Notes under the pieces: model-generated | What the model was told of the DNA's origin: nothing | Databases searched by the model: none | What the model saw: only the letters and a program-made list of their open reading frames with translations | Translations under genes and position numbers: made by a program | Origin: Opitutales bacterium | GTDB taxonomy: Bacteria; Verrucomicrobiota; Verrucomicrobiia; Opitutales; UBA2995 | Direction of reading: 5' to 3' | Length of the DNA stretch: 36,211 bases | Assembly (NCBI GenBank): GCA_022824405.1 | Contig: JAJDZZ010000018.1 | Coordinates: forward strand, 1-36,211 | Shown: positions 7,875-35,977 of the stretch, in pieces | Layout of the letters: every line of letters starts with the position of its first letter | How positions within the stretch are numbered: position 1 is the first letter of the stretch

Positions 7875-7899
7875 GGGATGGGAATGACCAAAAGTCTGA

Positions 7900-7927
7900 A
7901 TTGGAATGTTTGCACCGATCAAGTCAA
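7900..7927 (-). promoter_or_regulatory. Candidate promoter of the ceramidase-like/cytochrome fusion gene
   Basis: On the minus strand TTGACT (7927-7922) is followed after 16 bases by TCCAAT (7905-7900). The -35 box is strong and the -10 box matches four of six consensus positions. Transcription would start near 7893, giving a leader of about 19 bases. Confidence 0.35.
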
Positions 7928-16604: not shown

Positions 16605-19600
16605 TTGAACAGAACGATATCCATCATCTCGATTCTTGCTTCCACATCGGGGATGTGGGCAGAAGAGTCCTATGAGCCGCAGGTATCTACTTCCATCGAT
16701 GAGGCGTGGCGATGGACGGAGCTGGATATCTTGGCGGGCTTCGATTATTTCTTTGTGGATGAGGCTGCCAACGGCGATCTCTGGTTTGCGGATCAATCGG
16801 GTGAGATAGCTCGCTATGATGGAGTAAAACTCGAAAGGTTCGATGTGGTGGAGGGGCTTTCCGTAGTAGAACTCCACGGAAGTCCGTCGGGTGATGTATA
16901 CGTGCTGACCTTGAACAAGTTTGTGGTTCTAAGGGAAGGTGAATGGATCACCTTGTTGGATGAGAGTGATACCTCTATGGATTTGTATCGATTGGCCGAG
17001 GCTGAAGATGGATCGATTTGGGTGGGGGGATACGACGGATTTTTCCACTTTCAGGGAGACCGGTATGACTATTACGAGACGGGCCAAGTTTGGTTTCGGT
17101 CGATGGTGTTGGATAAGCAGGGAATGTTGTGGTTGATTCCGGAAAACCGTGAAGAGCTTTATATCTACGATACGAACAGTCCTGTTGATGGTAGAATGCG
17201 TTTGGTTCGGCGGATTGAATTCCCCGGTTTGTCCGGGAGCAGGTTATTGAGTCTGGATCCGCAGGGTCGTGTCTGGGTGCTGGACCCGGATGAGAATGGA
17301 GACTGCTACTACTTTGAGAACTATGCGCGTAAGTTGGGCGCTCGAGGGTTGCGAGGTCCATTCTTTAAAGCGGCGGCCTTTAGAATGGCTACGTTGCCTT
17401 CAGGGCGAACCTGGTTCTCCGTACCTCGAGGATTGGCTGAACTGGATGGTCAATCTGTCAGGATATTCTCAGGTGTGACCTTGGTTCCAACGGAGTTGCC
17501 CTGTCTATTGGGTCTTTCCAATGAACGACTGCTGATCGGAGGTCAGAAGTCGAAGACTTATATTGTCGATTTGTCTACCGACCGTCTGGCCACATATTCA
17601 GGTCTCAACTATCAATGTAAGGACCAGGACGGTACGGAGTGGTTTTTAGAGCATGACGGTCGATTGGTCGGCCGCCTGGCTGGAGGAAAGGAGTGGATCG
17701 CCTATGGAGTCTCAGACGGCATTATTGAACGCCCCAATTGCGTTACCACTTCCCAGGACGGCACCTTGTGGGTGTCCGGAAGACACCTCGACTCTGCTGC
17801 GGTTTCATTTCGTGTGAATGGGGAATGGAGGCGACTGAGTATTCCAAATTTCGGGAACATTTTCAGTCACCTGGGAGTTCTTGAGTCACGGGATGGTTCC
17901 ATGGTTTTCGGATCCGGAACTCCATTGAATCGTTTGCGTGGAAGAAGCGGAGGTTCCGTAGTTTTCAGGAAAGTGAAGGGTGATTGGATTCATGAGGTGA
18001 TTGTTCCTCCCAAGGCTCCGCGAAGGCCGGCGGTCATTGTCGAACGAGGCGACCATGAAACCTGGTACGGAAGTGATGAGATGTTTCTCGGATTGGGTGG
18101 AGATTCGATGCCGAAAGTGTCCCGTACTTTCGATCCTCAGCGTTGGATCGACGACATGGCGGTGGATTCAGCAAACCAGTTGTGGGTGGCTGCCTGGGGT
18201 AGCGGCATATTTCAATTGAAAGGAAATGCATGGAAATTTCATGGCGAGGACCAAGGGCTGGTTAGCAACCAGGTAATATACCTCTTGCCGAGTGACTTCT
18301 GGGGTGGTGTCTGGGCTGCAACGCCAAAGGGCCTAAGTCGATTCGATGGCCGGGTGTGGTCCAACTGGGAATTGCCGATCGAAAAGCCATTCATGCGTGA
18401 GGGCGTCACATTAGTCGAGGGCGAGAACGGTACGCTTTGGGTTAACCAAGCCTACCGGGATTGGTTGCTGGAGGGGGAGTATGTTGCCAAACAACGAAAT
18501 CTGTTCGAGGTGCGCCGCTACCGAAAAACGGACGTGGCTCCCGAGACGTTTATGGAAGAGTATCAAAGTGAACTACCGGAGGGCAGTCCTGTAATCGCGT
18601 CCTGGTCGGGGCGGGATTTCTGGTCCGAAACTCCGACTGGGGACCTTGAATATTCCTGGCGCATCGGCGGCGGCGAGTGGTCGAACTTTTCTCGAGAGAC
18701 AGACACGGTTCTGAGTGGTATTGGAGCGGGGGAGTATCTTTTCGAAGTCAGGGCCCGAGACCGGGATTGGAATATCGACCCATCTCCGGCGCAGGCGACC
18801 ATCCAAATGGTTCCTCCGGTTTGGAAACGGGCCTGGTTCATAGGGTTGGTTATAGCTACCCTGGCATTGATCGCCTTTCTCATTGAGCGCCTTTTCCGAG
18901 CGCGGGTGCGAGCAGCCATAGCGATGGAAGAGTTCAAATTGGATTTCTTTACCCATATCTCGCATGAATTGAGAAACCCCTTGGCGGTCATTCTGGGACC
19001 GCTGGAGAGTCTGTTGCAGGACGAGCATTCCCTGAACACGAGACAGAAACTGCGACTGGCGCTTCGCAATACCCGCAAAATGCAGGGTCTGGTGGATCAA
19101 CTGCTGCAATTTCGAAAGGTGGAGCTTGGAAAGACCCAATATCGCCCTGCACCAGGGGAGCTGATCGGCTTTGTTAGAGAGACGATAGAATTGCATGCGC
19201 CACTTTGGCAGAAACGAAACATATCCGTGCGAGTTCGTTCCAATGTGAAGTCCTGCGTGTGTGCCTTTGACTCGGAAAAGCTGCAGAAGATCGTCGATAA
19301 CCTGATTTCGAACGCCATCAAATACTCCTTCAAGGGGGGTGTGATCGAAGTCAGGGTGGATGAGGTCTTTGAAGATGGTGTCCGGGAATTGAATTTCGTG
19401 GTGGAAGATCATGGCCCGGGGATTCCCCAGCACGAACTCTCTCTCATACAAAAGCCCTTTTACCGCGTGAATGGAAAAAGTAATTCCAAGGGGTTTGGGA
19501 TTGGTTTGGCGCTGGTCTCCGGGTTGATAAAGGTCTGGGGCGGAAAGTTGGACATCGAAAGTCCCGTTGATGAAAACGGGAGGGGCACGCGTGTAGGCGT

Positions 19601-20477
19601 GTTGCTTCCTCTCGATGAAGTGGATATGTTGGAACCAAAACCAGAGCTGGACCGTGTGGAGGACGAAGGAGAGAGTGAGGTCGTCAGTAGCGAAAGAGCC
19701 AGTATCCTATTGATAGAAGACAATATGGATTTGCGAACATTCATGCGCGTCGAACTCTCCTCACGCTACGATATCCTCGAAGCGGGCGACGGGCTCGAAG
19801 GCTTGGCTACAGCCATCAGGGAAAACCCGGACTTGATCATCACAGATGTCATGATGCCGGAGATGGATGGCTTCGAGCTATGCCGCAAATTGCGAGAGGA
19901 GCCCGAGACTTCCCATGTGCCGATCGTTATGCTGACAGCCAAGAGTTCGGATGAGCACAATGTGGAGGGAGTCGAAGCCGGAGCGGACGTGTATTTCGCC
20001 AAACCGTTAAACATGCTTAAGCTGATTCCGCAGATTGAGAACCTGCTCGATATGCGTCGAAAAATGAGAAAGCGCTTCACTGAGCAGTTGGTGGTTGAGC
20101 CGACGGGATTGACGATTGTACCGGCAGACCAGGAGTTTATCCGAAAGGCCATTTCCATCGTGGAGTCGAACATGGACGACCCGGAATTCAGGGTGGATCA
20201 ATTTGCCCGTGAAATGGGAATGGGAAAAACTACGCTTCTCAAAAAGCTGCGGGCACTCACCGGCGAGGCTCCCGGTTCCTTTATTCGCAGCATGCGGTTG
20301 AAGCGCGCCGCTCAATTGCTTTCCAAGGGTGAAATGTCCGTTTCCGACACGCTGCTTTACGTGGGAATTCACGACGCCAGTTACTTCAGTCGAGCCTTTA
20401 AAAAGCAGTTTGGAGTGGCTCCCTCCCAATACGGCAAAGAACAGGAACCAGCCCGCACAAATCCCATCACGGTTTAA
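16605..20477 (+). CDS. Hybrid two-component system sensor kinase/AraC-type response regulator (HTCS)
   Basis: A 1290-residue one-protein signalling system. A TTG start is used because it gives a short Sec signal (NRTISIISILA..MWA); the next Met (16653) would delete most of it, so the start is uncertain. Order: two-component-regulator propeller repeats (about 30-640, blades such as DGSIWVGGYDG), Y_Y_Y domain (about 660-735), membrane helix (about 744-763), HisKA with phospho-His787 (SHELRNPL), HATPase with N903 (DNLISNAIKYS), DHGPGIP and GFGIGLAL, a receiver with Asp1081 (ITDVMMPEMDG) and Lys1133, and an AraC HTH (about 1180-1282, ending SYFSRAFKKQFGVAPSQY). In Bacteroidetes such proteins bind an oligosaccharide in the periplasm and switch on a polysaccharide locus, and the downstream locus makes that the likely role. 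It begins 4 bases after the azurin-domain stop, and its end overlaps the convergent toxin gene by 11 bases. Confidence 0.93.
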   Translation: MNRTISIISILASTSGMWAEESYEPQVSTSIDEAWRWTELDILAGFDYFFVDEAANGDLWFADQSGEIARYDGVKLERFDVVEGLSVVELHGSPSGDVYVLTLNKFVVLREGEWITLLDESDTSMDLYRLAEAEDGSIWVGGYDGFFHFQGDRYDYYETGQVWFRSMVLDKQGMLWLIPENREELYIYDTNSPVDGRMRLVRRIEFPGLSGSRLLSLDPQGRVWVLDPDENGDCYYFENYARKLGARGLRGPFFKAAAFRMATLPSGRTWFSVPRGLAELDGQSVRIFSGVTLVPTELPCLLGLSNERLLIGGQKSKTYIVDLSTDRLATYSGLNYQCKDQDGTEWFLEHDGRLVGRLAGGKEWIAYGVSDGIIERPNCVTTSQDGTLWVSGRHLDSAAVSFRVNGEWRRLSIPNFGNIFSHLGVLESRDGSMVFGSGTPLNRLRGRSGGSVVFRKVKGDWIHEVIVPPKAPRRPAVIVERGDHETWYGSDEMFLGLGGDSMPKVSRTFDPQRWIDDMAVDSANQLWVAAWGSGIFQLKGNAWKFHGEDQGLVSNQVIYLLPSDFWGGVWAATPKGLSRFDGRVWSNWELPIEKPFMREGVTLVEGENGTLWVNQAYRDWLLEGEYVAKQRNLFEVRRYRKTDVAPETFMEEYQSELPEGSPVIASWSGRDFWSETPTGDLEYSWRIGGGEWSNFSRETDTVLSGIGAGEYLFEVRARDRDWNIDPSPAQATIQMVPPVWKRAWFIGLVIATLALIAFLIERLFRARVRAAIAMEEFKLDFFTHISHELRNPLAVILGPLESLLQDEHSLNTRQKLRLALRNTRKMQGLVDQLLQFRKVELGKTQYRPAPGELIGFVRETIELHAPLWQKRNISVRVRSNVKSCVCAFDSEKLQKIVDNLISNAIKYSFKGGVIEVRVDEVFEDGVRELNFVVEDHGPGIPQHELSLIQKPFYRVNGKSNSKGFGIGLALVSGLIKVWGGKLDIESPVDENGRGTRVGVLLPLDEVDMLEPKPELDRVEDEGESEVVSSERASILLIEDNMDLRTFMRVELSSRYDILEAGDGLEGLATAIRENPDLIITDVMMPEMDGFELCRKLREEPETSHVPIVMLTAKSSDEHNVEGVEAGADVYFAKPLNMLKLIPQIENLLDMRRKMRKRFTEQLVVEPTGLTIVPADQEFIRKAISIVESNMDDPEFRVDQFAREMGMGKTTLLKKLRALTGEAPGSFIRSMRLKRAAQLLSKGEMSVSDTLLYVGIHDASYFSRAFKKQFGVAPSQYGKEQEPARTNPITV

Positions 20478-21235: not shown

Positions 21236-21469
21236 AACCTACCATTTCTCTAAGATTTTGAGTCTGTAATTTGCTATAAATCAAGGAGAAATGGAAGGCT
21301 GCGCTTAGAGTCAAGTAATGCGCTCAATAGTCCTAACGGTTTTCTGCCGATCTGTGTAAAATTACGAGCAAGGTTCATCCTTCACAATGTTCGTTACCGA
21401 TCCCTCTCGGGCTCCTGTTTCGGCTTGAGGCGATTGGACCGCAACTTGGTTAACCCCGAACACTTACTC

Positions 21470-24400
21470 ATGAAAATACGAACAGTAATATTACAGATTT
21501 GGATTACCTCCCTTTTTGCCAGTTGCCTGATTCCCTGGACGTCTCTGGCGCAGGGCGTGAACTCCGAGGACGAAGAAGAGATCTATACGCTTTCCCCATT
21601 TCAGGTGGATGTCTCCGAAGACAGTGGCTACTATGCCTCCCAAACTTTGGCTGGCGGTCGGACTGCCACCGATATCAGGGATGTCGGCACGTCCATCGAA
21701 GTGTTGACGGCAGCCTTCCTCGACGACATCGGCGCGAACAACATCGAAGATTTTTTACAATACACCACCGGCGGTGAAGTAGGCGGCTCCCAAGGTAACT
21801 TCGTAGGTTTTTCCGAAAGTCAGTTTGGTGACGCGAGTACTGCCGCGGCTCGCCGCAATCCGACCCAAAACACTCGCCTTCGCGGAATTGGTCGACCCGA
21901 TACGGTTCGGAATTACTACAAGACGACGATTCCGATGGAGTACTACAATACGGACCGGGTCGATATTAATCGCGGAGCGAACTCTTTCCTCTTCGGTCTG
22001 GGTTCTCCTGCGGGCTTGATCAATACGAACTATCAGAAAGCCGGGATGTTCGATACCTCGCGCATCAACCTGGATCTCGATACCGAAGGAACTTTTCGCA
22101 CGGCTCTCAACTTCAATCGCGAGCTGGTGGAAGATAAACTGGCCGTGCGCGTGGCAGCGCTGTCGAATCAACAGAAGTACCGCCAGAATCCATCCTATCG
22201 CGATGATGAGCGCCTGTATGGGGCGGTAACTTTCAGGCCCTTTCAAAATACTACGATCCGGGCGCACCTTGAATCGGGCGACATATACGGAAATGCCCCT
22301 GATACGCTCCTGCCGTCTCAAGCTTTTGATTCCTTTATCCTTTACCGGACGCCAGTGGATACGTTTTACAATTTGCAGCATTTTGGCGATTCGGAAGGCC
22401 CGAATGCCGCGCAATACAACATGCTGAGTGCGGAGGATAAGGCCAACTTTGTTGCCCCCGGCAGCGATGCCAGAGAAGCCCTGGGACATAGCCGGATGTT
22501 TGGCTATGCCATGGTTTACGATGGCCAAAATGGAGGAGACCCAAGCTTGGCTTTCCAGCCTGACCTCAATCGGGGAGGGGTCGAAGCGGGGGACCCCTTT
22601 TGGGAACCCGAATTTCTGGCCGATGGGACTCCCGATCCCGGATTTGGCAGTACCGCCAATGCCCAGTTGATGTTTTACCGCAATATTCGAAATGTAATCG
22701 ATCCGGTTGGACCGGCCCAAGGGTTTACCAATCTCGATTCCTTTGATTTCTCCAAGCAGAACTTCGGAGGCGATACCGATTTCTACTCTCACGAATTCCA
22801 AACTTATAACCTCGCCTTGGAGCAACTCTTCCTGGATGGAAACGCGGGTATCGAAGTCGGATTCGATTATGAGGAAAAAGACAACGATGCCGTTACCAAC
22901 TTCAATGGCTGGAAGGGAGAATTCCAGATCGACATCAACCGCACGTTACCTTTGCCAGCCCAGGCCCCTACCGGTAACGGCGGCGAACGTTCCGAGGCGC
23001 GGCCCAATCCGAACTTTGGGCGTCCCTATTACCTGACGGAACCCAATCGCTCCACCTCATTCGAGGAACGGGAAGCCATCCGCGCCACCGCCTTCCTCAA
23101 GTATGACTTCTCCGAGAAACATGAGGGCAGTTGGTTGAAGTGGCTGGGCAGGCACACACTGACCCTTCTCGGCGACAAATTTACGGAGCGCTACAGAACG
23201 GCTAATAGCAGTCACAATTCCTTTTCGGAAGATTTCAATTTGCCTTGGTCCCTCTCCTTCGCCGGTGCAGAACAGCCCCACAACGGCTATCGCCGCACCT
23301 CGAAGATGATTTACATGGGGCCGGCTATTCAGAGCTATATCAACGACCCCTTTAATCCGAGCACGCCGATCAGCCTGAGTGACATCGTCATCGAGGCATC
23401 GACGGCCAATCTATTGGATCCGAATCCGGTTACCCAAGCCATTTTCTGGAACTTGGGTCCGGATGCGGAAGGTTCCAATTGGACCCATCTCAACCTCACT
23501 GAGGATGAAAGGATGGCGGATCCGACCACCAACTACGGCGGCACCAATCCCAACAGGTTTGGCAATGAGCCGGATTGGTACACGGGCGACCGTCGCGAGT
23601 ATTGGGATACGGGAACAGTTGAGGCCCGCTGGGTTCCACTGGCCGGCAACAGCAATCGTAAGACGGTGGTGGAATCCATGGCCATCAACCTGCAATCCAT
23701 GTTTTTCGGTGACCACCTGGTGGCAAACCTGGGGTACCGTGAAGACGTGGTGGACAATTGGCTGAATACAAGGTTGATCTCAAATCATTTGCTTACTCAG
23801 GAGGGTTACGATGCAGCCATTCCAGCTGAACAAGGCTCCGTCCCCTCTGATTTGGTGGGTTCGCTGCCAAATTCTTATGCTGGCGATTATACCTTTGCGG
23901 TTTCTCCGGAGTTCCTGCGTCCTGAGGATGGTGATTACTCCTTTTTTGACAAGGGGCCCACGGGTGAAGGTTCGTTTGGATACGGCGGTGTTTTCCACAT
24001 ACCGCAGAAGTGGCTGAATTCAGACACTTTTGGGTTATCCCTGCACTATAACTACTCCAAGAACTTCGTCCCGGATGCGAGTCGCAATACGTTCAAGATT
24101 GGGCAGAATGGAGCAGGTTACAGCTTTGAAACCTTGGCCTCCCCCATTGGTGAAGGGGAAGACATCGGATTCACGGTCAATTTTAATGATCGATTTACCG
24201 CTCGTTTCAATTGGTTCGAATCATCCATCAAAAATAACACGACCTCGCGAATAGGCAACACACTCAACCAACTGGTCGATTTCGCAACCCGCGCTTTTAT
24301 TTGGGCTGACTTTGACATTTCCCAACTCGACCCGGATGGTAACGGAATCATCGATGTCGGGGTGGACGGAACTGACCATCGATGGAAGGACAATCCCCGC

Positions 24401-25243
24401 TATGATGTAAGTCGCACCTACCAGATGAGGGATGCGGTTCAATGGGTGGTCGATGACGGTTGGATGGGATCTCGAATCGAAGAAGGTCTATTGATCCTGA
24501 GGCCCAATGGAAGTGGTTGGATCAGAAACCTTTCCTTCCCCGGCCTGACCGATACGGAAGACCGCGTAGCCAAGGGATTCGAATTGAACCTGACCTACAA
24601 TCCCACCAACAATTGGCGCATCGCCCTCAATGCGTCCCAGATTGAGTCCGTATCCAGTAATGTCGGCGTATTGACCCAGAATGTCATGGATCGCTTTTTC
24701 CCGAATTACAATGAAGTGAAAGATTTCCTCTATTGGGAAGCGGCCGATACCAGACCTTCCAATTTTCCATTGAGCAGGTGGCTCGAACCACGCGTTCGGA
24801 ATTACTATCAGGATAAGTTGCAGGAAGGTAAATCCACGAATGAAGTACGCGAATGGAGTACGAATTTCGTGACCAATTACAATTTCCGGGAAGGTCGTTT
24901 CAAGGGCTTCTCGGTTGGTGGCGCCATCCGTTGGCAGAGTTCCGGAGTGGTTGGTTACCCGCTCATGCCGTTCGATGTTTCCGAAGGCGTTACGCTCAAT
25001 GTTCCCGATGTGGATAACCCTTATGAAGGCAGTGACATCCTATACGTTGACTTGAATATTGGCTACGAAAGGAAGCTCTTTGACGGCAAGGTCATGTATC
25101 GGACCCGTCTCCACCTCAAAAACATCAACAATGCCGGCAGTGATAATTTGACGACCGTTCGCGTGCGCAATGACGGTTCCGCCACGACTGTTCGTTGGGA
25201 CCCGCCGTTGGTGATCCGCTTGGCCAATACTTTCACCTTTTAA
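21470..25243 (+). CDS. TonB-dependent outer-membrane receptor
   Basis: A 1257-residue outer-membrane transporter. The ATG at 21470 gives a Sec signal (MKIRTVILQIWITSLF..TSLAQG); an upstream TTG at 21425 adds 15 residues before it and is not favoured. A TonB-box-like segment (IYTLSPFQVDV) precedes the plug (TATDIRDVGTSIEVLTAAFL..NNIEDFLQY). The rest alternates aromatic strands and ends in ...RLANTFTF with the terminal Phe expected of a beta-barrel. The plug sequence style matches receptors common in Opitutae. There is no carboxypeptidase-like N-terminal extension and no SusD-like lipoprotein next to it, so it is not a standard SusCD pair. It probably imports the oligosaccharide handled by the sulfatases and glycosidases downstream. 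A terminator-like hairpin follows the stop. Confidence 0.93.
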   Translation: MKIRTVILQIWITSLFASCLIPWTSLAQGVNSEDEEEIYTLSPFQVDVSEDSGYYASQTLAGGRTATDIRDVGTSIEVLTAAFLDDIGANNIEDFLQYTTGGEVGGSQGNFVGFSESQFGDASTAAARRNPTQNTRLRGIGRPDTVRNYYKTTIPMEYYNTDRVDINRGANSFLFGLGSPAGLINTNYQKAGMFDTSRINLDLDTEGTFRTALNFNRELVEDKLAVRVAALSNQQKYRQNPSYRDDERLYGAVTFRPFQNTTIRAHLESGDIYGNAPDTLLPSQAFDSFILYRTPVDTFYNLQHFGDSEGPNAAQYNMLSAEDKANFVAPGSDAREALGHSRMFGYAMVYDGQNGGDPSLAFQPDLNRGGVEAGDPFWEPEFLADGTPDPGFGSTANAQLMFYRNIRNVIDPVGPAQGFTNLDSFDFSKQNFGGDTDFYSHEFQTYNLALEQLFLDGNAGIEVGFDYEEKDNDAVTNFNGWKGEFQIDINRTLPLPAQAPTGNGGERSEARPNPNFGRPYYLTEPNRSTSFEEREAIRATAFLKYDFSEKHEGSWLKWLGRHTLTLLGDKFTERYRTANSSHNSFSEDFNLPWSLSFAGAEQPHNGYRRTSKMIYMGPAIQSYINDPFNPSTPISLSDIVIEASTANLLDPNPVTQAIFWNLGPDAEGSNWTHLNLTEDERMADPTTNYGGTNPNRFGNEPDWYTGDRREYWDTGTVEARWVPLAGNSNRKTVVESMAINLQSMFFGDHLVANLGYREDVVDNWLNTRLISNHLLTQEGYDAAIPAEQGSVPSDLVGSLPNSYAGDYTFAVSPEFLRPEDGDYSFFDKGPTGEGSFGYGGVFHIPQKWLNSDTFGLSLHYNYSKNFVPDASRNTFKIGQNGAGYSFETLASPIGEGEDIGFTVNFNDRFTARFNWFESSIKNNTTSRIGNTLNQLVDFATRAFIWADFDISQLDPDGNGIIDVGVDGTDHRWKDNPRYDVSRTYQMRDAVQWVVDDGWMGSRIEEGLLILRPNGSGWIRNLSFPGLTDTEDRVAKGFELNLTYNPTNNWRIALNASQIESVSSNVGVLTQNVMDRFFPNYNEVKDFLYWEAADTRPSNFPLSRWLEPRVRNYYQDKLQEGKSTNEVREWSTNFVTNYNFREGRFKGFSVGGAIRWQSSGVVGYPLMPFDVSEGVTLNVPDVDNPYEGSDILYVDLNIGYERKLFDGKVMYRTRLHLKNINNAGSDNLTTVRVRNDGSATTVRWDPPLVIRLANTFTF

Positions 25244-25414: not shown

Positions 25415-26788
25415 ATGAATCTTCTCAGAAACCTGATCATCCCGGCCCTCTTGCTTCCATCCATGTCGATGGCTGCAAATAAGCCGAATATCGTGCTCTT
25501 GTTTGCCGATGACGCGGGTTATGCTGATTTTGGTTTTCAGGGAAGCGAAGTGATCAGGACGCCCCATCTGGACAAGCTGGCGTCGCAGGGAGTGCGGTTT
25601 ACCCAAGCCTACGTGTCCGATCCGACTTGTGGTCCATCCCGTGCAGGTTTGATCACCGGTCGTTATCAGCAACGCTTTGGGTTCGAGGAAAACAACGTGC
25701 CTGGATTTATGAGCGCCGTCTCCGCAGCGGATGGGGAAGAAATGGGTTTGCCCCTGGAGGAGAGGACCATGGCGGATGTTCTGAAAGACCAGGGCTACCG
25801 CTCCGCTTTCTTTGGAAAATGGCATTTGGGAGGGGCCGATCGTTTTCATCCCACCAAGCGTGGCTTCGATGAGTTCTTCGGGTTTCGCGGGGGAGCGCGC
25901 AGTTACTGGGCATATCCGGAAGATCCGGCCGATCCGCTCAACAAGCTGGAACGCGGTATGGGAAATTTCGTTGAACATGAGGGTTACCTTACAGATGTCC
26001 TGGCTGATGAGACGGTCGATTTCATCAAAAGAAACAAAGGTGGCCTGTTCTTTGCTTTTGTATCCTTCAATGCGGTGCATACCCCGATGCATGCCAGGGA
26101 GGAAGATCTCAATCAGTTCCCGGAACTAGATGGCACCCGCAAGGAACTCGCCGCCATGACACTCTCTCTCGACCGCGCTTGCGGGGGAATTTTGACGGCT
26201 CTGGCGGAGCTCGGTTTGGAGGAGAACACCATCGTGGTTTTCACCAATGACAATGGAGGCCCCTCCGACAGGAATGCTTCAGTAAACTTTCCTTTGAGTG
26301 GAACCAAGTCGAACCACCTGGAAGGAGGAATTCGAGTGCCGTTCATCATGCGCTGGCCTGGGCGGTTGCCTGCCGGAGCAGACTACGATTTGCCGATCAG
26401 CACCCTGGACTTGTTGCCGACCTTATACGAAGCGGCAGGTGGAATGGCTGATGCATCGATGAAATTGGATGGAGTGAATATCATGCCCTATGTGCGGGGG
26501 GATGTCGAAGGACGACCGCATCAGGTCCTCTTCTGGAAAAAGGAAACCCGCGCCGTAATGCGGGATGGAGACTGGAAATTGCTGCGGTTCCCCGACCGTC
26601 CGGCTGAGCTATATTATTTGCCGGATGACATTGCCGAGCAAGACAACCTGGCCATGGAGCATCCCGAGCGGGTAAAAACCATGTTCAAGCAAATCTTTGC
26701 CTGGGAGTTGGAATTGGAACGGCCCCGTTGGCTGCTCCAAAGAAAATACGAAAAACTGGATATTGATCGTATGGATATGTACCGGTAG
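25415..26788 (+). CDS. Sulfatase (type I, formylglycine-dependent)
   Basis: A 457-residue exported arylsulfatase-type enzyme with a Sec signal ([20 protein letters not shown]). The metal-binding opening [16 protein letters not shown] and the maturation motif C72-G-P-S-R76 mark the S1 family; Cys72 must be converted to formylglycine. Later signatures are GKWHLGG, TNDNGG and the C-terminal [18 protein letters not shown]. It removes sulfate esters from a saccharide in the periplasm; which position or sugar cannot be told. The gene opens the run after the receptor terminator and is followed by the sugar transporter after 32 bases. No Shine-Dalgarno sequence is visible; TATACAAT lies 6 bases before the ATG. 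Confidence 0.92.
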
Positions 26789-26820: not shown

Positions 26821-28386
26821 ATGGATTTACAACATAGGAACGCATTTTTCTATGCAACCGTCGTTGCGTTGGGAGGATTCCTCTTTGGACTGGATGCGGC
26901 CCTGATTGCCGGAACGGTGGATTTTCTCACCCAGGAGTTTTCTCTAACGGCCCTTCAATTGGGGAATGTCGTGAGCGCTCCCGCCTTGGGTGTGCTGGCT
27001 GCGCTGCCATTTGTAGGGTTCATTTGCAACAGATTCGGGCGCAAGAAGACGGTCATGCTGGTTGCCATTCTATACCTGGTATCTGCTATGGGGTCTGCCT
27101 TTGCCCCGAGTTATGAATTTCTTTGGGGAGCGCGTTTTCTTGGAGGCTTGGCCTTCAGCTCGATCGCGCTGGCTTCCATGTATATCGGTGAAGTCGCTCC
27201 CCGGAAATGGCGCGGCAAGCTGGTTTCAATGACCCAGATAAATATCGTTGTCGGACTTTCGGGTGCCTACTTCGTCAACTACCTTATCAACCACTGGGCC
27301 GGTCTCGAGGCCGGATGGGTTGCTTCCCTGGGAATCGATCATCACACTTGGCGCTGGATGCTGGGATCTGAAATTCCATTCGCTCTGCTCTGGGTTTTCC
27401 TTCTCATTTCAATCCCGGAAAGTCCTTCCTGGCTGATGTATCGCAATCGACCGGATGACGCTGAGCGAACACTGCAGAAGATTCTACCGGAGAAGGACAT
27501 TGCGCACCACATGAAGGAAATGCGGGAGAGCCTGCGCAAGAACCCCCAAAGCCACGGCATCGGATCGCAGTTGAAGGAAATTTTCGGGAGACGTATGCGG
27601 CTTATCTTCATCATCGCGCTCACTATCGCGATCGCGCAGCAATCTACAGGAATAAATGCCATCCTGTTTTACGCCCAGACGGTGTTTAAACAGCTCGGTG
27701 GCGGAACGGATGCCGCTTTTGCCCAAGCGCTCTGGATTGGTCTGGTCAGTTTGGTATCCACTATAATCGGCCTTCTATTGGTGGATAAAATCGGCCGGCG
27801 TCCGATGATCATCGGGGGAATGGTCTGGATCGTCATCAGCCACGGGTGGTGTTCCTATGAATTCAAGCAGGCGCGCTATACATTGACTTCGGAGGACATC
27901 GCAGAATTGCAGTATATTCCGAATCCCGAACGTTTGGAGCCCTTGACCGGACTGGCGTATGAGAACGATGTCGCCTTCAAGAAGGCGCTGCGGGAGGCGT
28001 TGGGAGAGGCGGAAGCGCTGGAGCATCAGGGGGCCCTCCTGCAGAAAGCCATTACCATGAATGCGGCCTTCGTGCTCATTGGCATTCTCAGTTTCATCAG
28101 CGCATTTCAGATGACAGTCGGTCCGGTCATGTGGGTCTTGTTCTCAGAGATCTTTCCCATATCAGTGCGTGGTCTGGCCATTCCTTTTTTCACCATAGTT
28201 ACCAGTTTGACAAATTACGTCGTTCAACAATTCTTTCCCTGGCAATTGGAGAATATGGGCATGAGCACCATTTTCCTTTCCTATGCTGCCGTGGTTTCTG
28301 TAGGCCTCATCATCCTCTTCTTTACCCTCAAGGAAACGAAGGGCCTGAGTATCGAGGAAATTCAGGAGAAACTCGCCCGTAGCTAA
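26821..28386 (+). CDS. MFS sugar porter (sugar:proton symporter)
   Basis: A 521-residue inner-membrane transporter of the sugar-porter family. Signatures include GFLFGLDAALIAG in helix 1, RFGRKK between helices 2 and 3, IPESPSWL after helix 6, QQSTGINAILFYAQ in helix 7, DKIGRRP between helices 8 and 9, and GPVMWVLFSEIFP in helix 10. Length is about 50-60 residues above the usual 460-470 because residues about 346-412 form a charged insertion between helices 9 and 10. It likely brings the released monosaccharide (possibly arabinose or galactose, inferred from the neighbours) into the cytoplasm. It begins 32 bases after the sulfatase, with AAGG close to the ATG. Confidence 0.93.
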   Translation: MDLQHRNAFFYATVVALGGFLFGLDAALIAGTVDFLTQEFSLTALQLGNVVSAPALGVLAALPFVGFICNRFGRKKTVMLVAILYLVSAMGSAFAPSYEFLWGARFLGGLAFSSIALASMYIGEVAPRKWRGKLVSMTQINIVVGLSGAYFVNYLINHWAGLEAGWVASLGIDHHTWRWMLGSEIPFALLWVFLLISIPESPSWLMYRNRPDDAERTLQKILPEKDIAHHMKEMRESLRKNPQSHGIGSQLKEIFGRRMRLIFIIALTIAIAQQSTGINAILFYAQTVFKQLGGGTDAAFAQALWIGLVSLVSTIIGLLLVDKIGRRPMIIGGMVWIVISHGWCSYEFKQARYTLTSEDIAELQYIPNPERLEPLTGLAYENDVAFKKALREALGEAEALEHQGALLQKAITMNAAFVLIGILSFISAFQMTVGPVMWVLFSEIFPISVRGLAIPFFTIVTSLTNYVVQQFFPWQLENMGMSTIFLSYAAVVSVGLIILFFTLKETKGLSIEEIQEKLARS

Positions 28387-28458: not shown

Positions 28459-28579
28459 ACTTTGCAGGGTGTCAACCCGGCTTCACCCCCGAATCTGCAC
28501 GAAACCCCCACCAGCACTCGGCCTTCAAACGCTCGTCACGAATTTTGATGAGACATGCGGGCTAAACCTGTCCCAGACC

Positions 28580-30565
28580 ATGTCTGCCTCAAGTAATCAT
28601 GCAAAGACTGAGGTAAATACCTCCGAGAGTCCGCACGTCAGACTTCGCTCCATCGGGTTCGGTGATTGCAAATGGACGGATGGTTTCTGGGCCGAAAAAA
28701 CCAAACTCTGCCAAGAGGTTATGGCGCCTTACATGGGTTCCCTGCTGAAGGGGGACATCGGCTACGGTCTGAATAATTTCAAAATCGCGGCAGGGCTGAT
28801 GGAAGGCGAACACCGGGGGGAATATTGGCACGACGCAGACTTCTTCAAATGGATGGAAGCCTGTTGTTACTGCTATGCACTGAACGGCGATCGGGCCATC
28901 CTCGACGATCTGGACGAGATTCTGGAAATCGTAGCCCAGGCCCAGGAGGAAGACGGCTATCTCCACGCCTACATTCGGATCAATCGCATCCCTCGCTTTT
29001 CCAACCGCAAGTATCACGAGATGTACAACTGCGGTCACCTCTATACCGCGGCTTGTATCCATCATCGCATGACGGGGAAGACCAACTTTCTCGATATCGC
29101 GGTCAAGAATGCCAACTTGCTCTGCGAGCTCTTCAATCCATGCCCACCCGAACGAAAGCGATTTGGCTTTAACCAGACCCAGATCATGGGGCTGGTGGAG
29201 TTATACCGCACGGTGAAGGACAAGCGTTACCTGAAGCTTGCCGAGATCTTCATCGACAACCGCGGTCAATCCGAGATGGTGCACGACTCCACCACCGAAG
29301 GTTATCCCATCGGTGATATGGTACAGGAGCGAGTAGCCCTACGCGAAGAGACCGAGGCGGTTGGTCATGCCGTGCTTGCGCTCTATTTCTATGCCGGCGC
29401 TGCCGATGTATTTTCGGAGACCGGAGAACAGGCCCTCATCGACGCGCTCGATCGGCTTTGGGAAAACGTTACGCAAAAGAAGATGTATGTTACGGGCGCG
29501 GTGGGGCAGACCCACTACGGCGCTTCATCCCGCCGCGACCTGATCGAGGAAGGCTTTATCGACGAGTACATGATGCCGAACATGACCGCCTACAACGAGA
29601 CCTGTGCCAACATTTGTAATGCCATGTTCAGTCACCGCATGTTGGGGGTGAAGGGTGAGTCGAAATACGCCGACATCATGGAACTCGTCCTGCACAATAG
29701 CTGCCTCTCAGGCATCAGTCTCTGTGGACAGAAATACTATTACGCCAATCCGCTCAGAAAGATAGCCGGCGCTCGCGACTATTCGGTTATGAATACGGAG
29801 TCGCCCGACCGGGAACCCTACCTCCATTGCTTTTGCTGCCCGCCCAACGTGGTGCGGACCGTGGCAAAGGTTTCCGGCTGGGCCTACAGCCTGTCCGCAA
29901 CCGGCCTTTCCGTAAACCTTTACGGCGCTAACCGATTGTCCACAACCTTGCTCGACGGATCGTCTATCGAGCTGCGACAGGAGACAGATTACCCCTGGGA
30001 TGGACCGGTAACGATCACCATCGAGTCGTGTAAGAGCGATCCGTTTGAGGTTCTTCTCCGCATCCCCGAGTGGGCAAGTGGCAGCAGTTTGAAAGTTAAC
30101 GGTGAGAATGTCAGTGTCGACGTCGTTCCTGGCGAGTTTGCCAGGATCGAACGTGTTTGGCAGTCAGGCGATACGATTGATCTGATGCTGCCGATGGACA
30201 TTAAACTGATCGAGGGCCATCCGCGCATTGAGGAGGTCCGCAACCAGGTCGCCATCAAACGGGGACCGATCGTTTACTGCATGGAATCACCGGACTTGCC
30301 GAAAGATGCCGGAATCACGGATGTTTATCTTGCCAGTGATGCGGAGCTGATTTCGGAGAAGCAGCCCGCCTTTCTTGGCGGTATCACCACCGTTCATGGC
30401 GAAATACTTCTCCGGAAAAATCGTACACCGGGCATGTACCACGAACTTAAGAACCCTCAGTTCACTCCCCATCGTGCCCAATTTGTTCCCTATTTCACGT
30501 GGAGCAATCGGGGAGAAGCTGAAATGACGGTCTTTCTACCAGTAATTTGGAAGGATAAACCATGA
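28580..30565 (+). CDS. Glycoside hydrolase family 127 (beta-L-arabinofuranosidase-type, DUF1680)
   Basis: A 661-residue enzyme. Counted from the ATG at 28580, the zinc site and catalytic residues of the family fall where expected: Glu324 (acid/base), Glu340 and Cys342 in YNETC, and Cys419-Cys420 in HCFCCPP. In the characterised Bifidobacterium longum HypBA1 the corresponding residues are Glu322, Glu338, Cys340, Cys417 (nucleophile) and Cys418, a constant offset of two. This supports both the function and the start; a GTG 37 codons upstream gives an unlikely extension. There is no signal peptide, so the enzyme is probably cytoplasmic and acts on imported oligosaccharides to release L-arabinose. 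GH127 also includes other specificities, so arabinofuranose is likely but not certain. The stop overlaps the next start (ATGA). Confidence 0.88.
   Translation: MSASSNHAKTEVNTSESPHVRLRSIGFGDCKWTDGFWAEKTKLCQEVMAPYMGSLLKGDIGYGLNNFKIAAGLMEGEHRGEYWHDADFFKWMEACCYCYALNGDRAILDDLDEILEIVAQAQEEDGYLHAYIRINRIPRFSNRKYHEMYNCGHLYTAACIHHRMTGKTNFLDIAVKNANLLCELFNPCPPERKRFGFNQTQIMGLVELYRTVKDKRYLKLAEIFIDNRGQSEMVHDSTTEGYPIGDMVQERVALREETEAVGHAVLALYFYAGAADVFSETGEQALIDALDRLWENVTQKKMYVTGAVGQTHYGASSRRDLIEEGFIDEYMMPNMTAYNETCANICNAMFSHRMLGVKGESKYADIMELVLHNSCLSGISLCGQKYYYANPLRKIAGARDYSVMNTESPDREPYLHCFCCPPNVVRTVAKVSGWAYSLSATGLSVNLYGANRLSTTLLDGSSIELRQETDYPWDGPVTITIESCKSDPFEVLLRIPEWASGSSLKVNGENVSVDVVPGEFARIERVWQSGDTIDLMLPMDIKLIEGHPRIEEVRNQVAIKRGPIVYCMESPDLPKDAGITDVYLASDAELISEKQPAFLGGITTVHGEILLRKNRTPGMYHELKNPQFTPHRAQFVPYFTWSNRGEAEMTVFLPVIWKDKP
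30549..30555 (+). promoter_or_regulatory. Strong ribosome-binding site of the iduronate-sulfatase-like gene
   Basis: GGAAGGA lies 6 bases before the ATG at 30562, inside the end of the GH127 gene. It is the clearest Shine-Dalgarno sequence in the right part of the window and fixes the start. Confidence 0.65.
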
Positions 30566-32187
30566 AACCGTTTTTATTAACCCTCCTGAGCATCAGCCTG
30601 GCCCTCGCGCCGGTAAGCCTCTTGGCCGATGACCGCCGCAACGTCCTGTTCCTCGCCATCGATGATCTGCGTCCCGAATTGGGTTGCTATGGGTCACCCA
30701 TAGCCAGATCACCCAACATAGATGCTTTGGCGGAGCAAGGCATGGTGTTTGACCGCGCCTATTGCCAGGAAGCGATTTGCAGCCCTTCGCGTGCCAGCCT
30801 GATGACGGGGGCTCGTCCCGACACCATCGGAATCATTGAAAACTACACCTTCTTTCGCGATGCCAATCCCGACCTCGTGACCCTGTCCCAGCACTTCATC
30901 GCCAATGGCTACGAGGCGGTACAGGTGGGTAAGATTTATCATAATCAAGCGTTTTCCGACAATGAATATTCGTGGAGTCGGCAACCAGCCACGATTGATC
31001 TTCCCCAGCCCGTTAACTTCGCACTTCCTGAGAATCGGGAAACGCTACGGCGCAACAGGGTCGCATTGGAAGCAAAGTATGGAGCAAAACGCGTCAAGGG
31101 GAAGGGCATCATTCAAGGTCCGGCCTACGAGGCGGCAGATGTGCCCGACCAAACCTACCGCGACGGCTACAACACCGACGTAGCCATCGCTACCCTGCAG
31201 GAACTGGTGGCTGCAGACAAACCCTTCTTCCTTGGGCTCGGCTTTTACAAACCGCACCTCGATTTTATCGCGCCTCAAAAGTATTGGGATTATTACAATG
31301 AGGCCGATATCCCACTGGCGACGTTCATCGATCCGCCCAAAAACGGTGTCGAGATGGGCCTGCATGCCTCGTTTGAAATGCGCGTCCGTCATGGCATCCC
31401 TAAAACGGGTGGGTTCGACGAAGAACTCTCCCGCAAGCTCATGCACGCCTACCTCGCATGCGTGAGTTATATCGACGCGCAAGTTGGCCGCGTCATTGCC
31501 GCCCTGGAAGTAGCAGGTGTCAGGGATAATACCATCATCATGCTGTGGGGGGATCATGGCTGGCATCTGGGGGAAATGGGTATCTGGGGAAAGGCGACAA
31601 ATTACGAAATCTCAGCCCGGGTGCCCCTGGTGGTGTGGACCCCGGACATGGCCGAATCCAGCCGAGGATCTCACACCAAGGCGCTGGTGGAACTGGTGGA
31701 CCTTTATCCGACCTTATGTGATCTCGCCGGTTTGGAAGAGCCGGAACACCTGGAGGGAACGAGTTTTGCGCCCCTGTTAAATAACCCGGACCAGCCATGG
31801 AAACGTGCCGCATTCAGTCAATTTCCCAATCCCGCTCAGCGCGAATGGGCCGCCAACCCTCTATCTCCCAGTATGCACGAGACCTTCTTTGGTCCCCTCA
31901 TGGCAGAGGTCGAGGCGCGGATCCAAAAGCAACAAGGTGACAGGTGGGACCGGGACCTCTTCGAGAATCACCTCATGGGCTATGCCATGCGCACCGATCG
32001 CTATCGTCTGGTTGTTTGGCAGGATATGCGCTCACCGGAAGCCGACCCGATCGATGTGGAGTTATACGACCATCTCCAAGATCCAAAAGAAACGTTGAAC
32101 ATTGCGGCGGATGAACCGGCCTTGGTGGAGAAATTGTTAGCGCAGTTTCGTGCCGGTTGGCAGGGCAACCTCCCCCCTGAAATTTGA
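30562..32187 (+). CDS. Sulfatase, iduronate-2-sulfatase-like
   Basis: A 541-residue exported sulfatase (signal MKPFLLTLLSISLALAPVSLLA). The opening RRNVLFLAIDDLRPELGCYG followed by SPNIDALAEQGMVFDRAYCQ is the pattern of iduronate-2-sulfatase-type enzymes. The maturation motif is C73-S-P-S-R77. The later GLGFYKPHLDFIAPQKYWD, MLWGDHGWHLGEMGIWGK and VELVDLYPTLCDLAGL agree. In bacteria this subgroup acts on various sulfated sugars, so heparin-like iduronate need not be the substrate. The ATG overlaps the GH127 stop by four bases (translational coupling), and the next gene starts 13 bases after its stop. Confidence 0.93.
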   Translation: MKPFLLTLLSISLALAPVSLLADDRRNVLFLAIDDLRPELGCYGSPIARSPNIDALAEQGMVFDRAYCQEAICSPSRASLMTGARPDTIGIIENYTFFRDANPDLVTLSQHFIANGYEAVQVGKIYHNQAFSDNEYSWSRQPATIDLPQPVNFALPENRETLRRNRVALEAKYGAKRVKGKGIIQGPAYEAADVPDQTYRDGYNTDVAIATLQELVAADKPFFLGLGFYKPHLDFIAPQKYWDYYNEADIPLATFIDPPKNGVEMGLHASFEMRVRHGIPKTGGFDEELSRKLMHAYLACVSYIDAQVGRVIAALEVAGVRDNTIIMLWGDHGWHLGEMGIWGKATNYEISARVPLVVWTPDMAESSRGSHTKALVELVDLYPTLCDLAGLEEPEHLEGTSFAPLLNNPDQPWKRAAFSQFPNPAQREWAANPLSPSMHETFFGPLMAEVEARIQKQQGDRWDRDLFENHLMGYAMRTDRYRLVVWQDMRSPEADPIDVELYDHLQDPKETLNIAADEPALVEKLLAQFRAGWQGNLPPEI

Positions 32188-32200
32188 AACCCTACTTCTG

Positions 32201-35200
32201 ATGAAACGACTTCTTTGTACGGTTTTGATACAGTCGACCGTGTTGACCGCGGTTGCCTTTGCCGAGGACCGGCCTAATTTCATCATCATCCTGTGTGATG
32301 ACCTGGGATACGCCGACGTAGGGTTCAATAACTCCGAGGATATCCGGACGCCTCATCTGGATCGACTGGCTCATGGTGGTATGATCCTTACCTCGGGCTA
32401 TGTGGCCCATCCCTTTTGCGGACCGAGTCGCATGAGTCTGATGGCTGGGAGGTATTCCCATCAGTTTGGCGGACCGTTTAATTTGCCCATCAGTAGTGAT
32501 GGCCCGGAAGAATATTATAAGCATGGCATTCCCGAATCCGAGAAACTGATCAGCAACGAGCTTCAGGATGCCGGATACTTCACGGGAGCGATCGGAAAAT
32601 GGCATATGGGAATGACCGCGCCCTATCATCCCAACAACCGCGGGTTCGATGAGTATTATGGATTCCTCGGAGGAGGGCATCGTTATTTCCCCAGCCAATT
32701 CATGCCCGCCTATAAGCGGCGCCTGGCAGCGGGAGATGGGCCGATCAACGAATACCTGATCCCATTGGAGCACAATGGTGAGCAGGTCGATGAGACCGAG
32801 TACATCACCGATGCGCTATCGCGCGAAGCAGTGAACTTTGTTCATCTGGCAGACCGACAGGATAAGCCGTTTTTCCTCTATCTGGCCTATAACGCCCCCC
32901 ATTCCCCACTTGAAGCCAAGGAGGAGGATCTGGCCTTGTATTCACATATTGCGGACCAAAAGCGCCGCATTTATGCGGCCATGGTACATGCGGTGGATCG
33001 CGGTGTGGGGCGTTTGGTGGAGGCCCTCGAAGAGACCGGCGCTTACGAAAACACCCTGATTGCTTTCTTCAGCGACAACGGCGGAAAGGAATCGCTGGGC
33101 GCCGACAATGGCCCGCTTCTCGAAGGGAAGGGAAGCACGGCGGAAGGCGGGATCCGCGTGCCCATGTTTTTTCATTATCCCGCCCGGTTGGAGGCTGGCC
33201 AAGTCTACCGGCATTCCATCACAGCGTTGGATTTATACCCGACATTTTCCGCCCTGGCGCGGGTGGAAATCTCTGAGGACAAAATCCTCAGTGGAAAGAA
33301 CATTTGGCCGGCCCTGCAATCTGGTCAGGATGCCCGACCGGGCGAAATGATCTACGCGCTACGGCATCGCAAGGGATTCCATGACGTGGGTGGGCGCATC
33401 GACCGGTGGAAGGTTCACCGCCTTTACCAGGGGCCGTGGAAACTATTCAACCTCGACGAAGACATCGGCGAAACAAACGACCTCAGTAGTCAGCACCCCG
33501 AGAAGGTTGAATCCATGGTCGAGCAACTCGAGCGATGGAGCCGTTCCCACACCGAGCCCAAGTGGTTTCATATCCGCCAGGAGGGCAAGGAATGGCATGA
33601 AGCCGACATGCCGCGCTTCGATGAGACCTTTCGTTTGAAATCCGGGGTCGTGGGATCGTCCGGCAGTTCTGCAGGGCTCGAAGCACAGGCGTTGGTCAAA
33701 ATGGATTTGCTCAAAACATTGATGGATACAGCCCATTCTCAATCCATCGACGTTACCCGGGAAGAAACGGTGATGTGGTTTGCCCGGGAATTTCTGAAAT
33801 TCGCCGATTGGGACGAGAAAAACACAGAGGCAAATGAATACCTGTTTGGCGTCTATCGCGAACCCTTCAAAAGCCAAAAGGAGAAACTGGCCGCTGAGCT
33901 ACCGGATTTTGAGCGCAAAAAGGTCATCGAAATCCTGGACAAGGGAATCGCCACCCTCGAAGCCGTCTTGAGCGGTGAGATCGTGCGGCGCCCGGTCAAT
34001 AAGGTTGATTGGCAAAACATCGAGGTTGCTGAAGACGTATTGTTGAGCAATGGGAAGCCCATTTTCCTCTATGACTACTTCTCCAAGTCGGTGGGGCGCC
34101 CGCTCACCGATAACCAAGTATACAACGATCACCTGGGAGCGATTTTTCATGGTGGTGAAAACTTGTACCCCGTTGACCATGACAGAGCCATCAACTCCTT
34201 CCTGCTGAAAGAAGACGACTCCTGGGATGAGGATCTCTTGAGGGAGATCATCGGCATTTCCGATACCAATGTGGGGTTCCTTCTGTTCTGGAACGGTGGT
34301 ATCCCCGATTGGGTGTTGGAAAAAGAGCCAGAGGCCAATAAAGGGCGCAGCCTCTTCACCGGTTTCGACATCGACAATCCCCTGGTGCGCGATGTCTGGG
34401 GGAAAATTGCCCGTAAGGCCGGCGAACTTACCCAAGGCAAGAAAGTCACCCAACTGGGTTACATTCTTTCCAACGAGCCTCACTGGTTTGCTGCGGAAGA
34501 GCACTGGACCCAGCACTTCCTGGAAATGAATTCAGTTTCCTCCTACACCCATGCCAATTTCAAGGCCTGGTTAAAGGAAACCTATGGCGGCAGGATCGAG
34601 AAGCTGAACGAGAACTGGGAAACCTCCTTTGCCGACTTCGATTCCATCACCTATCCGTTTCCGATTTCACGTTCCTACCGGGGTAAACCCATGTGGTATG
34701 ACTGGTGTCGCTACAATATGCAGCGTGGGACGGATTGGTTCACCTACATTCAAGAGGAGTTGCGGAAGGGAAATCCGGATGCGGATACGAGCATCAAACT
34801 GCAACCCAGTCTCTTTTCCGAAAACTACCGGTCCCATGGCATCGATGTGGAAGCGCTGACGGAACTCACATCCATGATCGGTGACGATGCCAAAACGCAA
34901 TGGATCAGAAACCTGAACCGCGCCGAGCCGGATCCATGGGAAGAACACTACGCCTATTTCTGGGAAGAGCTGAGCATGACCTACGACTTCCTGGAATCCG
35001 TGGCGCCCAACAAGATCCACTTCAATTCGGAGAATCATTTTCTCTCCGCATCCTGGGTGCGGGAGTTGGATATGCCGGAGGAATACGTGCGAAATGTATA
35101 CTGGTTGGCCACGATTCAAGGCATGGATGCCAATCTCGCCTGGTGGTGGGCGCGGGACCCGGATGGTTCCCCGGAAGACCGAATGGAAGGCGAATTGAAT

Positions 35201-35977
35201 TTCTTCGATCCGGCCCTGGCCGGGTCCTATGCCGCATCTGCCAATCAACAGCCGCACGTCGTCAATGAAGTGACCCAGGTCATGTACGACTTGAACAGTT
35301 TCTCCGAGGAGGTGATGGCAATCCGCAAGCAACGCCGCCCGGTTCGCCTGTTTTACTCAGAGACATCGGCCATCAACAAGCGCCGCCATATGACGGATCT
35401 GTTCGAGATCTATGAGCAGTTGTTTTTCGAGGGGTTCCCCCTCGGCTTCGCCACCGAAAAGATCATCGAGAAGCAGGACGCAAGCAACTGGGATGTAATC
35501 GTCGTTTACAAAACGGAATACGTAACCGATGCGGAATTCGATACCCTGCAAAGTTACCTGGACAACGGCGGCACGGTGTTGATGGACAACCTTTCCAGTC
35601 TGGCTAAAAACGAATACGGGCGGAAACGCAGCGAAGGCCTGAGAAGTGGAAATGGAAAGCTCGTCGTAATGGGAAAGCAGGCTTCCCCGAAGGAAACGAA
35701 AGCGAAGGCTTTGGAGCTAATAGAGACGAGCCTGCCCGAACTCGTTCTCACCGAAGACAATGGCACGGATTACAAAGGCTGCACCTGGAGAGTCGCAAGA
35801 GGTCCGGATAGAAGCTTACTGCTGAATATCCTTAATCTTGGCAAGCATACGGCGGAGCTTGACATCCAAATGAAAAATGGAGAGGCGGCGGCCGCAACGG
35901 ACATGCTGACCGGTCGAGCAATGGGATCCGACTTTAAGTTGAACCCAAACGGTGTGCTGCTCCTCGAAGTAAAGTAA
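32201..35977 (+). CDS. Two-enzyme fusion: sulfatase plus GH42-like glycoside hydrolase
   Basis: A 1258-residue exported protein (signal MKRLLCTVLIQSTVLTAVAFA) read from the ATG at 32201; an upstream GTG at 32150 lies inside the previous gene. Residues about 22-480 are a complete type I sulfatase: NFIIILCDDLGYADVGF, C73-G-P-S-R77, GKWHMG and FSDNGG, ending in a conventional tail. A helical linker (about 490-600) leads to a clan GH-A type glycosidase (about 602-1040) with candidate catalytic Glu759 (SNEPHW) and Glu944 (HFNSEN). The stretch FKAWLKETYGGRIEKLNENW matches the GH42 style. Residues about 1047-1200 resemble the glutamine-amidotransferase-like trimerisation domain of GH42 beta-galactosidases, followed by a small beta domain. 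It would desulfate and cleave the same sulfated, perhaps galactose-containing, glycan. The GH42 assignment is by pattern only. Confidence 0.82.
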   Translation: MKRLLCTVLIQSTVLTAVAFAEDRPNFIIILCDDLGYADVGFNNSEDIRTPHLDRLAHGGMILTSGYVAHPFCGPSRMSLMAGRYSHQFGGPFNLPISSDGPEEYYKHGIPESEKLISNELQDAGYFTGAIGKWHMGMTAPYHPNNRGFDEYYGFLGGGHRYFPSQFMPAYKRRLAAGDGPINEYLIPLEHNGEQVDETEYITDALSREAVNFVHLADRQDKPFFLYLAYNAPHSPLEAKEEDLALYSHIADQKRRIYAAMVHAVDRGVGRLVEALEETGAYENTLIAFFSDNGGKESLGADNGPLLEGKGSTAEGGIRVPMFFHYPARLEAGQVYRHSITALDLYPTFSALARVEISEDKILSGKNIWPALQSGQDARPGEMIYALRHRKGFHDVGGRIDRWKVHRLYQGPWKLFNLDEDIGETNDLSSQHPEKVESMVEQLERWSRSHTEPKWFHIRQEGKEWHEADMPRFDETFRLKSGVVGSSGSSAGLEAQALVKMDLLKTLMDTAHSQSIDVTREETVMWFAREFLKFADWDEKNTEANEYLFGVYREPFKSQKEKLAAELPDFERKKVIEILDKGIATLEAVLSGEIVRRPVNKVDWQNIEVAEDVLLSNGKPIFLYDYFSKSVGRPLTDNQVYNDHLGAIFHGGENLYPVDHDRAINSFLLKEDDSWDEDLLREIIGISDTNVGFLLFWNGGIPDWVLEKEPEANKGRSLFTGFDIDNPLVRDVWGKIARKAGELTQGKKVTQLGYILSNEPHWFAAEEHWTQHFLEMNSVSSYTHANFKAWLKETYGGRIEKLNENWETSFADFDSITYPFPISRSYRGKPMWYDWCRYNMQRGTDWFTYIQEELRKGNPDADTSIKLQPSLFSENYRSHGIDVEALTELTSMIGDDAKTQWIRNLNRAEPDPWEEHYAYFWEELSMTYDFLESVAPNKIHFNSENHFLSASWVRELDMPEEYVRNVYWLATIQGMDANLAWWWARDPDGSPEDRMEGELNFFDPALAGSYAASANQQPHVVNEVTQVMYDLNSFSEEVMAIRKQRRPVRLFYSETSAINKRRHMTDLFEIYEQLFFEGFPLGFATEKIIEKQDASNWDVIVVYKTEYVTDAEFDTLQSYLDNGGTVLMDNLSSLAKNEYGRKRSEGLRSGNGKLVVMGKQASPKETKAKALELIETSLPELVLTEDNGTDYKGCTWRVARGPDRSLLLNILNLGKHTAELDIQMKNGEAAAATDMLTGRAMGSDFKLNPNGVLLLEVK

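Follow-up and report, generated by a model that had tools for sequence, protein, structure and literature searches.

The S1_19 sulfatases and the glycoside hydrolases of family GH167 have been published as separate proteins which work in turn. The published homologues of subfamily S1_19A were found to be endo-acting and to remove the sulfate from D-galactose-4-sulfate (G4S) in both kappa- and iota-carrageenan, and the S1_19A enzymes of known structure (PDB 6bia and 6b0j) are stand-alone proteins in the literature. Family GH167 was defined from carrageenan enzymes described as 'GH42-like', shares less than 20% identity with GH42 and belongs to clan GH-A, and its layout contains a unique all-helical N-terminal domain N followed by the barrel domain A, domain B and the beta-sandwich domain C (PMC6923384). 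The known GH167 exo-carrageenases (PS47 GH167, BovGH167 with structure 6ptm, and the Wenyingzhuangia enzyme with structure 9whd) each constitute a separate protein that carries its own signal peptide. The kappa-NC4 was found to remain uncut by GH167 until its galactose-4-sulfate is removed, only desulfated ends being used (PMC6923384), and the published partner which opens kappa-NC4 for GH167 is an exo-acting S1_19B. In the published carrageenan cluster of Zobellia, S1_19, S1_7, GH127 and MFS genes were found (PMC5698469). A sulfatase and an exo-glycosidase which take consecutive steps and are contained in one polypeptide are known from the protein P36 of Formosa agariphila (S1_25-GH78), which acts on ulvan (PMC8511951, PMC8360166).

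The window, that is the whole stretch of 36,211 nucleotides analysed here (contig JAJDZZ010000018.1 of an Opitutales bacterium), was found to end with a gene at 32201-35977 (+), which contained one unbroken frame of 1258 aa without internal stop codons, from the ATG at 32201 to the stop codon at 35975-35977. By sequence comparison, the product is two enzymes for the degradation of carrageenan from red seaweed, a sulfatase and a GH167, fused in one exported bacterial protein. The sequence-only reading had proposed a sulfatase-glycosidase fusion in a single exported polypeptide, and this was borne out by the uninterrupted frame, by the full length of both halves as judged by homology, and by a signal peptide (residues 1-21, 32201..32263, +) which was recognised by eye in the translation, with the cut expected after AFA. 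The phmmer E values of 1e-169 for the sulfatase half and 1e-164 for the glycosidase half argue against a chance open reading frame, and the frame was found to be identical in the whole-genome contig.

The sulfatase half (residues 22-480, 32264..33640, +), delimited by the ends of the stand-alone homologues, is by homology an S1_19A-like carrageenan 4-O-sulfatase domain of the endo-4S iota/kappa type. It was found to contain the Pfam sulfatase domain PF00884 at residues 25-353 (E 7.5e-57) followed by an SGSH_C-type tail. The S1 motifs were present where the earlier reading had placed them, with CDD at residues 32-34 containing the metal-site DD33-34, followed by C73GPSR (C-x-P/A-S-R), in which Cys73 is the predicted formylglycine precursor. 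In the phmmer search against the PDB, the S1_19A structures 6bia, 6b0j and 6b0k were matched with E values of 1e-167 to 1e-169 (1e-169 for 6bia/6b0j) whereas S1_19B was matched with 4e-86. The S1_19A-type assignment rests on these PDB matches (567 bits for S1_19A and 293 bits for S1_19B or other S1 groups) together with the homologues from GH167 loci (50-60% and 34-36% identity, respectively). Residues 21-457 were aligned to the iota-carrageenan sulfatase structure 6bia/6b0j, and the likeness extended over the whole sulfatase half including the catalytic Cys motif; unlike these stand-alone enzymes, the present protein runs on via a linker into the GH167. The S1_19A-like genes of other GH167 loci were found by alignment to stop mostly at, or a few residues past, residue 480 of the fusion, and two of the aligned genes contained C-terminal extensions of their own. 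The S1_19A-like sulfatase of Rhodopirellula sallentina (L049:4082-5872), located directly 5' of a GH167, contained an extra C-terminal stretch with the EF-hand-like motif DTNNDG, and that of a Calditrichia bacterium (L054:1262-3085) contained a C-terminal extension resembling a sorting or FlgD-like domain.

Since the sulfatase homologues end at about residue 480, the true interdomain linker would comprise only about 11 residues. It is the Gly/Ser-rich LKSGVVGSSGS (residues about 481-491, 33641..33673, +), as placed by the alignment of the sulfatase C-termini and the GH167 N-termini and by the low pLDDT at this position. The GH167 part was found to start at about residue 487-492, right after the linker, whose place is occupied in stand-alone GH167s by the signal peptide. 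The join is a clean fusion, because a whole sulfatase replaces the signal peptide and the GH167 is short of this peptide alone. The VVGSS of the linker resembles the VVGTS in the N-terminal region of a relative (L020), and is perhaps a remnant.

The glycosidase half is a member of GH167, as judged by its full-length sequence, predicted fold, catalytic Glu pair and domain N. Residues 488-1257 were matched end to end by BovGH167 6ptm (E 9e-165, 769 residues) and by the Wenyingzhuangia GH167 9whd (E 8e-160). The identity was about 37% to these two solved structures and 77-82% to stand-alone GH167-like proteins. The domains N-A-B-C and the catalytic Glu pair were shared with the known exo-carrageenases. 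The all-helical domain N (residues about 487-591, 33674..33973, +) was placed by alignment to the N-terminal part of 6ptm/9whd, and this is the stretch which had earlier been taken for a helical linker of 110 residues and of unknown type; four N-terminal helices were found in the model, in agreement with the published layout (PMC6923384), and an unknown linker domain was thus rejected. It was followed by the (alpha/beta)8 catalytic domain A (about 592-1047, 33974..35341, +), supported by alignment to 6ptm and by the model, by domain B, which is GH42 trimerisation-like (about 1048-1175, 35342..35725, +; model secondary structure, sub-threshold PF08532 and homology), and by the beta-sandwich domain C with the stop codon (35726..35977, +; model secondary structure and homology).

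The putative acid/base E759 (NEPHW) and nucleophile E944 (NSENH), which had been named as candidates from the letters, were found to be aligned with E293 and E470 of the 6ptm chain, the proven acid/base and nucleophile of BovGH167 (E295 and E472 in the paper, the numbering offset being two for both), and both were conserved throughout the relatives. The model of residues 481-1258, obtained with 22 natural sequences (pLDDT 88, pTM 0.90), contained E759 after the strand 274-277 and E944 within the strand 460-465, a predicted placement of the acidic pair as in clan GH-A. In the Foldseek search with this model, 6ptm and 9whd were found at the top (TM 0.89-0.90), far above the GH42 structures (0.5-0.57). 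The sequence-only reading could not place this half because the Pfam matches there, GH42M and GH42C, were below threshold only; the GH42 catalytic family model PF02449 gave no match in the glycosidase half. Its 'GH42-like' label is therefore replaced by GH167, and the new glycoside hydrolase family which it had considered was rejected by the same sequence and fold matches to GH167.

The fusion gene closes a carrageenan operon. The genes found upstream, all on the + strand, were a hybrid two-component regulator (16605..20477; sensor propeller repeats, HisKA, response regulator and AraC-type HTH in Pfam), a TonB-dependent receptor (21425..25243; Pfam Plug), an S1_19B-like exo-4S kappa-carrageenan sulfatase (25415..26788; phmmer match to 6prm, E 2.5e-198), an MFS sugar permease (26821..28386; Pfam Sugar_tr) and a GH127 (28469..30565; Pfam GH127 domains and 5mqo), which by context and by analogy with Zobellia would be an alpha-1,3-(3,6-anhydro)-D-galactosidase. 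These were followed by a second sulfatase of the S1_7/iduronate-2-sulfatase-like type (30562..32187; Pfam, 6hhm E 3e-89 and iduronate-2-sulfatases next), whose end is separated from the fusion gene by 13 bases. In a genome of the same order (G242), the same genes were found in one cluster with the sulfatase and the GH167 separate. In the source genome (3.4 Mb), tblastn with the sulfatase query gave 191 matches, a very large sulfatase gene set, and one GH16 match was found elsewhere; two further sulfatase matches in large open frames (C60 and C58) were found to be adjacent separate genes and not fusions. Elsewhere in the window, 3225-7922 (-) encodes a 1565-aa protein in which a part resembling neutral ceramidase is combined with DUF7133, HEAT repeats and a cytochrome c domain.

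The best explanation, to which we give a probability of about 0.8, is that the fusion protein would be exported and bifunctional, serving kappa/iota-carrageenan catabolism by desulfating and then cutting. Cys73 would be matured to formylglycine in the S1_19A-type domain, which would hydrolyse the 4-sulfate of D-galactose-4-sulfate and convert kappa to beta and iota to alpha motifs. The tethered GH167, which belongs to the retaining hydrolases of clan GH-A and has the acid/base E759 and the nucleophile E944, would then free beta-neocarrabiose from the non-reducing end, being blocked while the unit at this end is still sulfated. Further handling of the disaccharide would fall to two other products of the operon, the GH127 and the MFS permease, and other sulfates would be dealt with by the S1_19B- and S1_7-like sulfatases encoded there; with iota-carrageenan as substrate, a DA2S sulfatase is needed in addition, as a separate enzyme. 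The pairing is functionally coherent because GH167 acts on desulfated ends only, and since GH167 needs desulfated kappa-NC4, one chain could desulfate it and then release beta-neocarrabiose. The fusion, both families, the catalytic residues and the operon were shown from this DNA, and each reaction would follow that of the published homologues. Both domains were found to be complete with intact catalytic residues, and the consecutive steps are published for homologues as separate proteins only. We infer that each half is active, that the two would have the same molecule as target and that the tether may bring a gain.

A course of desulfation and cutting in one protein, as put forward in the earlier reading, stands in the best explanation, and the concept as such was already known from P36. 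That protein differs from the present one in its sulfatase family, its GH family and its polysaccharide, and homology of the GH parts is not claimed. The family of each half and the two-step principle are thus known, but in the accessible part of the literature naming GH167, no description of a sulfatase-GH167 fusion was found.

The strongest rival accepts a real fusion with independent halves, in which the tether serves only co-export and co-expression with no rate gain over separate proteins. It differs from the best explanation solely in the effect of the tether, and we rate it slightly below an even chance. It is favoured by the shortness of the tether, a Gly/Ser stretch, by the separate proteins which suffice in nearly all relatives, and by the modes of action, as the sites of an endo S1_19A and an exo GH167 on the chain may not coincide. 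Tight coupling at the end of the chain cannot be taken for granted, since the sulfatase in the fusion is an endo S1_19A and the partner known from the literature is an exo S1_19B. Confidence in the full-length model (residues 22-1180) was low (mean pLDDT 57.5, pTM 0.45), and the active-site geometry is unreadable from it. A benefit of joining, whatever its nature, is hinted at by a second, independent sulfatase-GH167 fusion with another sulfatase subfamily.

This second fusion (genome G984) was the only one found in 241 Pirellulaceae genomes, and encodes a protein of 1358 aa (L154:6740-10816, -) which contained an S1_7-like sulfatase followed by an EF-hand-like spacer and a GH167. As in the window, an N-terminal sulfatase with CGPSR is joined in frame to GH167, whereas the S1_7-like sulfatase is 24% identical to that of the window, the spacer is EF-hand-like and the GH167 belongs to a distant clade (about 37% identical), located elsewhere in the GH167 tree on a long branch. 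Because the sulfatases are 24% identical and the GH167s are placed in separate parts of the tree, the two fusions are independent, and the sulfatase-GH167 fusion arose at least twice, as judged from these comparisons. The genes next to the second fusion encode a further S1_7-like sulfatase and a GH16. Further fusions were sought in the genomes of the window's relatives, order and phylum and of the Pelagicoccus family, and none was found; nor was any besides G984 found in 343 genomes of its phylum, 29 of the Pontiella family and 299 of the Aureibaculum family. No fused GH167 was found among 80 GH167 loci from named genomes or among plasmid loci, and in all the other surveyed GH167 loci except that of G984 the sulfatase and GH167 genes were separate. 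The survey thus gave one other fused relative, of independent origin, and not the many database entries by which the sequence-only reading would have been refuted. No sulfatase domain was found in the GH42-like proteins with CBM9 or Ig parts from other genomes.

The exact S1_19A-GH167 fusion is known from one genome only, whose assembly consists of 92 contigs, in which a base-level error is formally possible; in the only additional genome from its genus (91% complete), no GH167 match was found. The merging of two adjacent genes by a misassembled deletion in this draft genome was considered, and the uniqueness of the fusion among more than 80 GH167 loci and the existence of the presumed ancestral order, a separate S1_19A then GH167, in R. 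sallentina (L049) would agree with it. We hold such an artefact to be very improbable, as the join is in frame, at the natural end of the sulfatase and from just past the signal-peptide site of the GH167, with a Gly/Ser-rich spacer between, which would be rare for a random misjoin; the codon-position G+C pattern was also unbroken across the junction, where no tandem repeat was found. Least probable of all is that the glycosidase half targets another galactan of the agar or porphyran type, or that the pair serves another sulfated polysaccharide, for while family membership leaves the substrate unfixed, the closest solved relatives of both halves and the S1_19B-like neighbour are carrageenan enzymes, and the GH127 and the permease match the published carrageenan cluster.

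The fusion of the best explanation would have originated by the joining of two neighbouring genes, with the sulfatase kept at full length and the GH167 losing its signal peptide only. The GH167s placed closest to that of the window in the tree were those of R. sallentina (79%) and Pelagicoccus mobilis (82%), with a support of 92/89 for the fork shared with R. sallentina, and the order found in R. sallentina, S1_19A-like then GH167, is a plausible pre-fusion state. The close GH167 relatives were found scattered over Planctomycetota, Verrucomicrobiota and Kiritimatiellota, which suggests gene transfer of GH167 among those phyla. The two independent fusions are evolutionary evidence that the steps may gain from joining, and they raise the testable question of whether the joining of a sulfatase and an exo-hydrolase speeds the breakdown of sulfated polysaccharides; the present fusion is also a candidate single-protein tool for beta-neocarrabiose production. 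A convergent PVC class of single-chain desulfating exo-carrageenases, with S1_19A-GH167 in Verrucomicrobiota and S1_7-like-GH167 in Planctomycetota, in which the chain end would be handed straight from the sulfatase to the hydrolase via the tether for repeated stripping and cutting of kappa-carrageenan oligosaccharides, is a speculative and rather unlikely extension. The GH167 of a Pelagicoccus-type genome (G688; L132, L135 and L155), 80-83% identical, was found in pieces with an internal stop codon and is probably a pseudogene. Many distant-clade GH167s (L024, L035, L105, L114, L115 and L124) were found to be extended at the C-terminus by about 100 to 350 residues.
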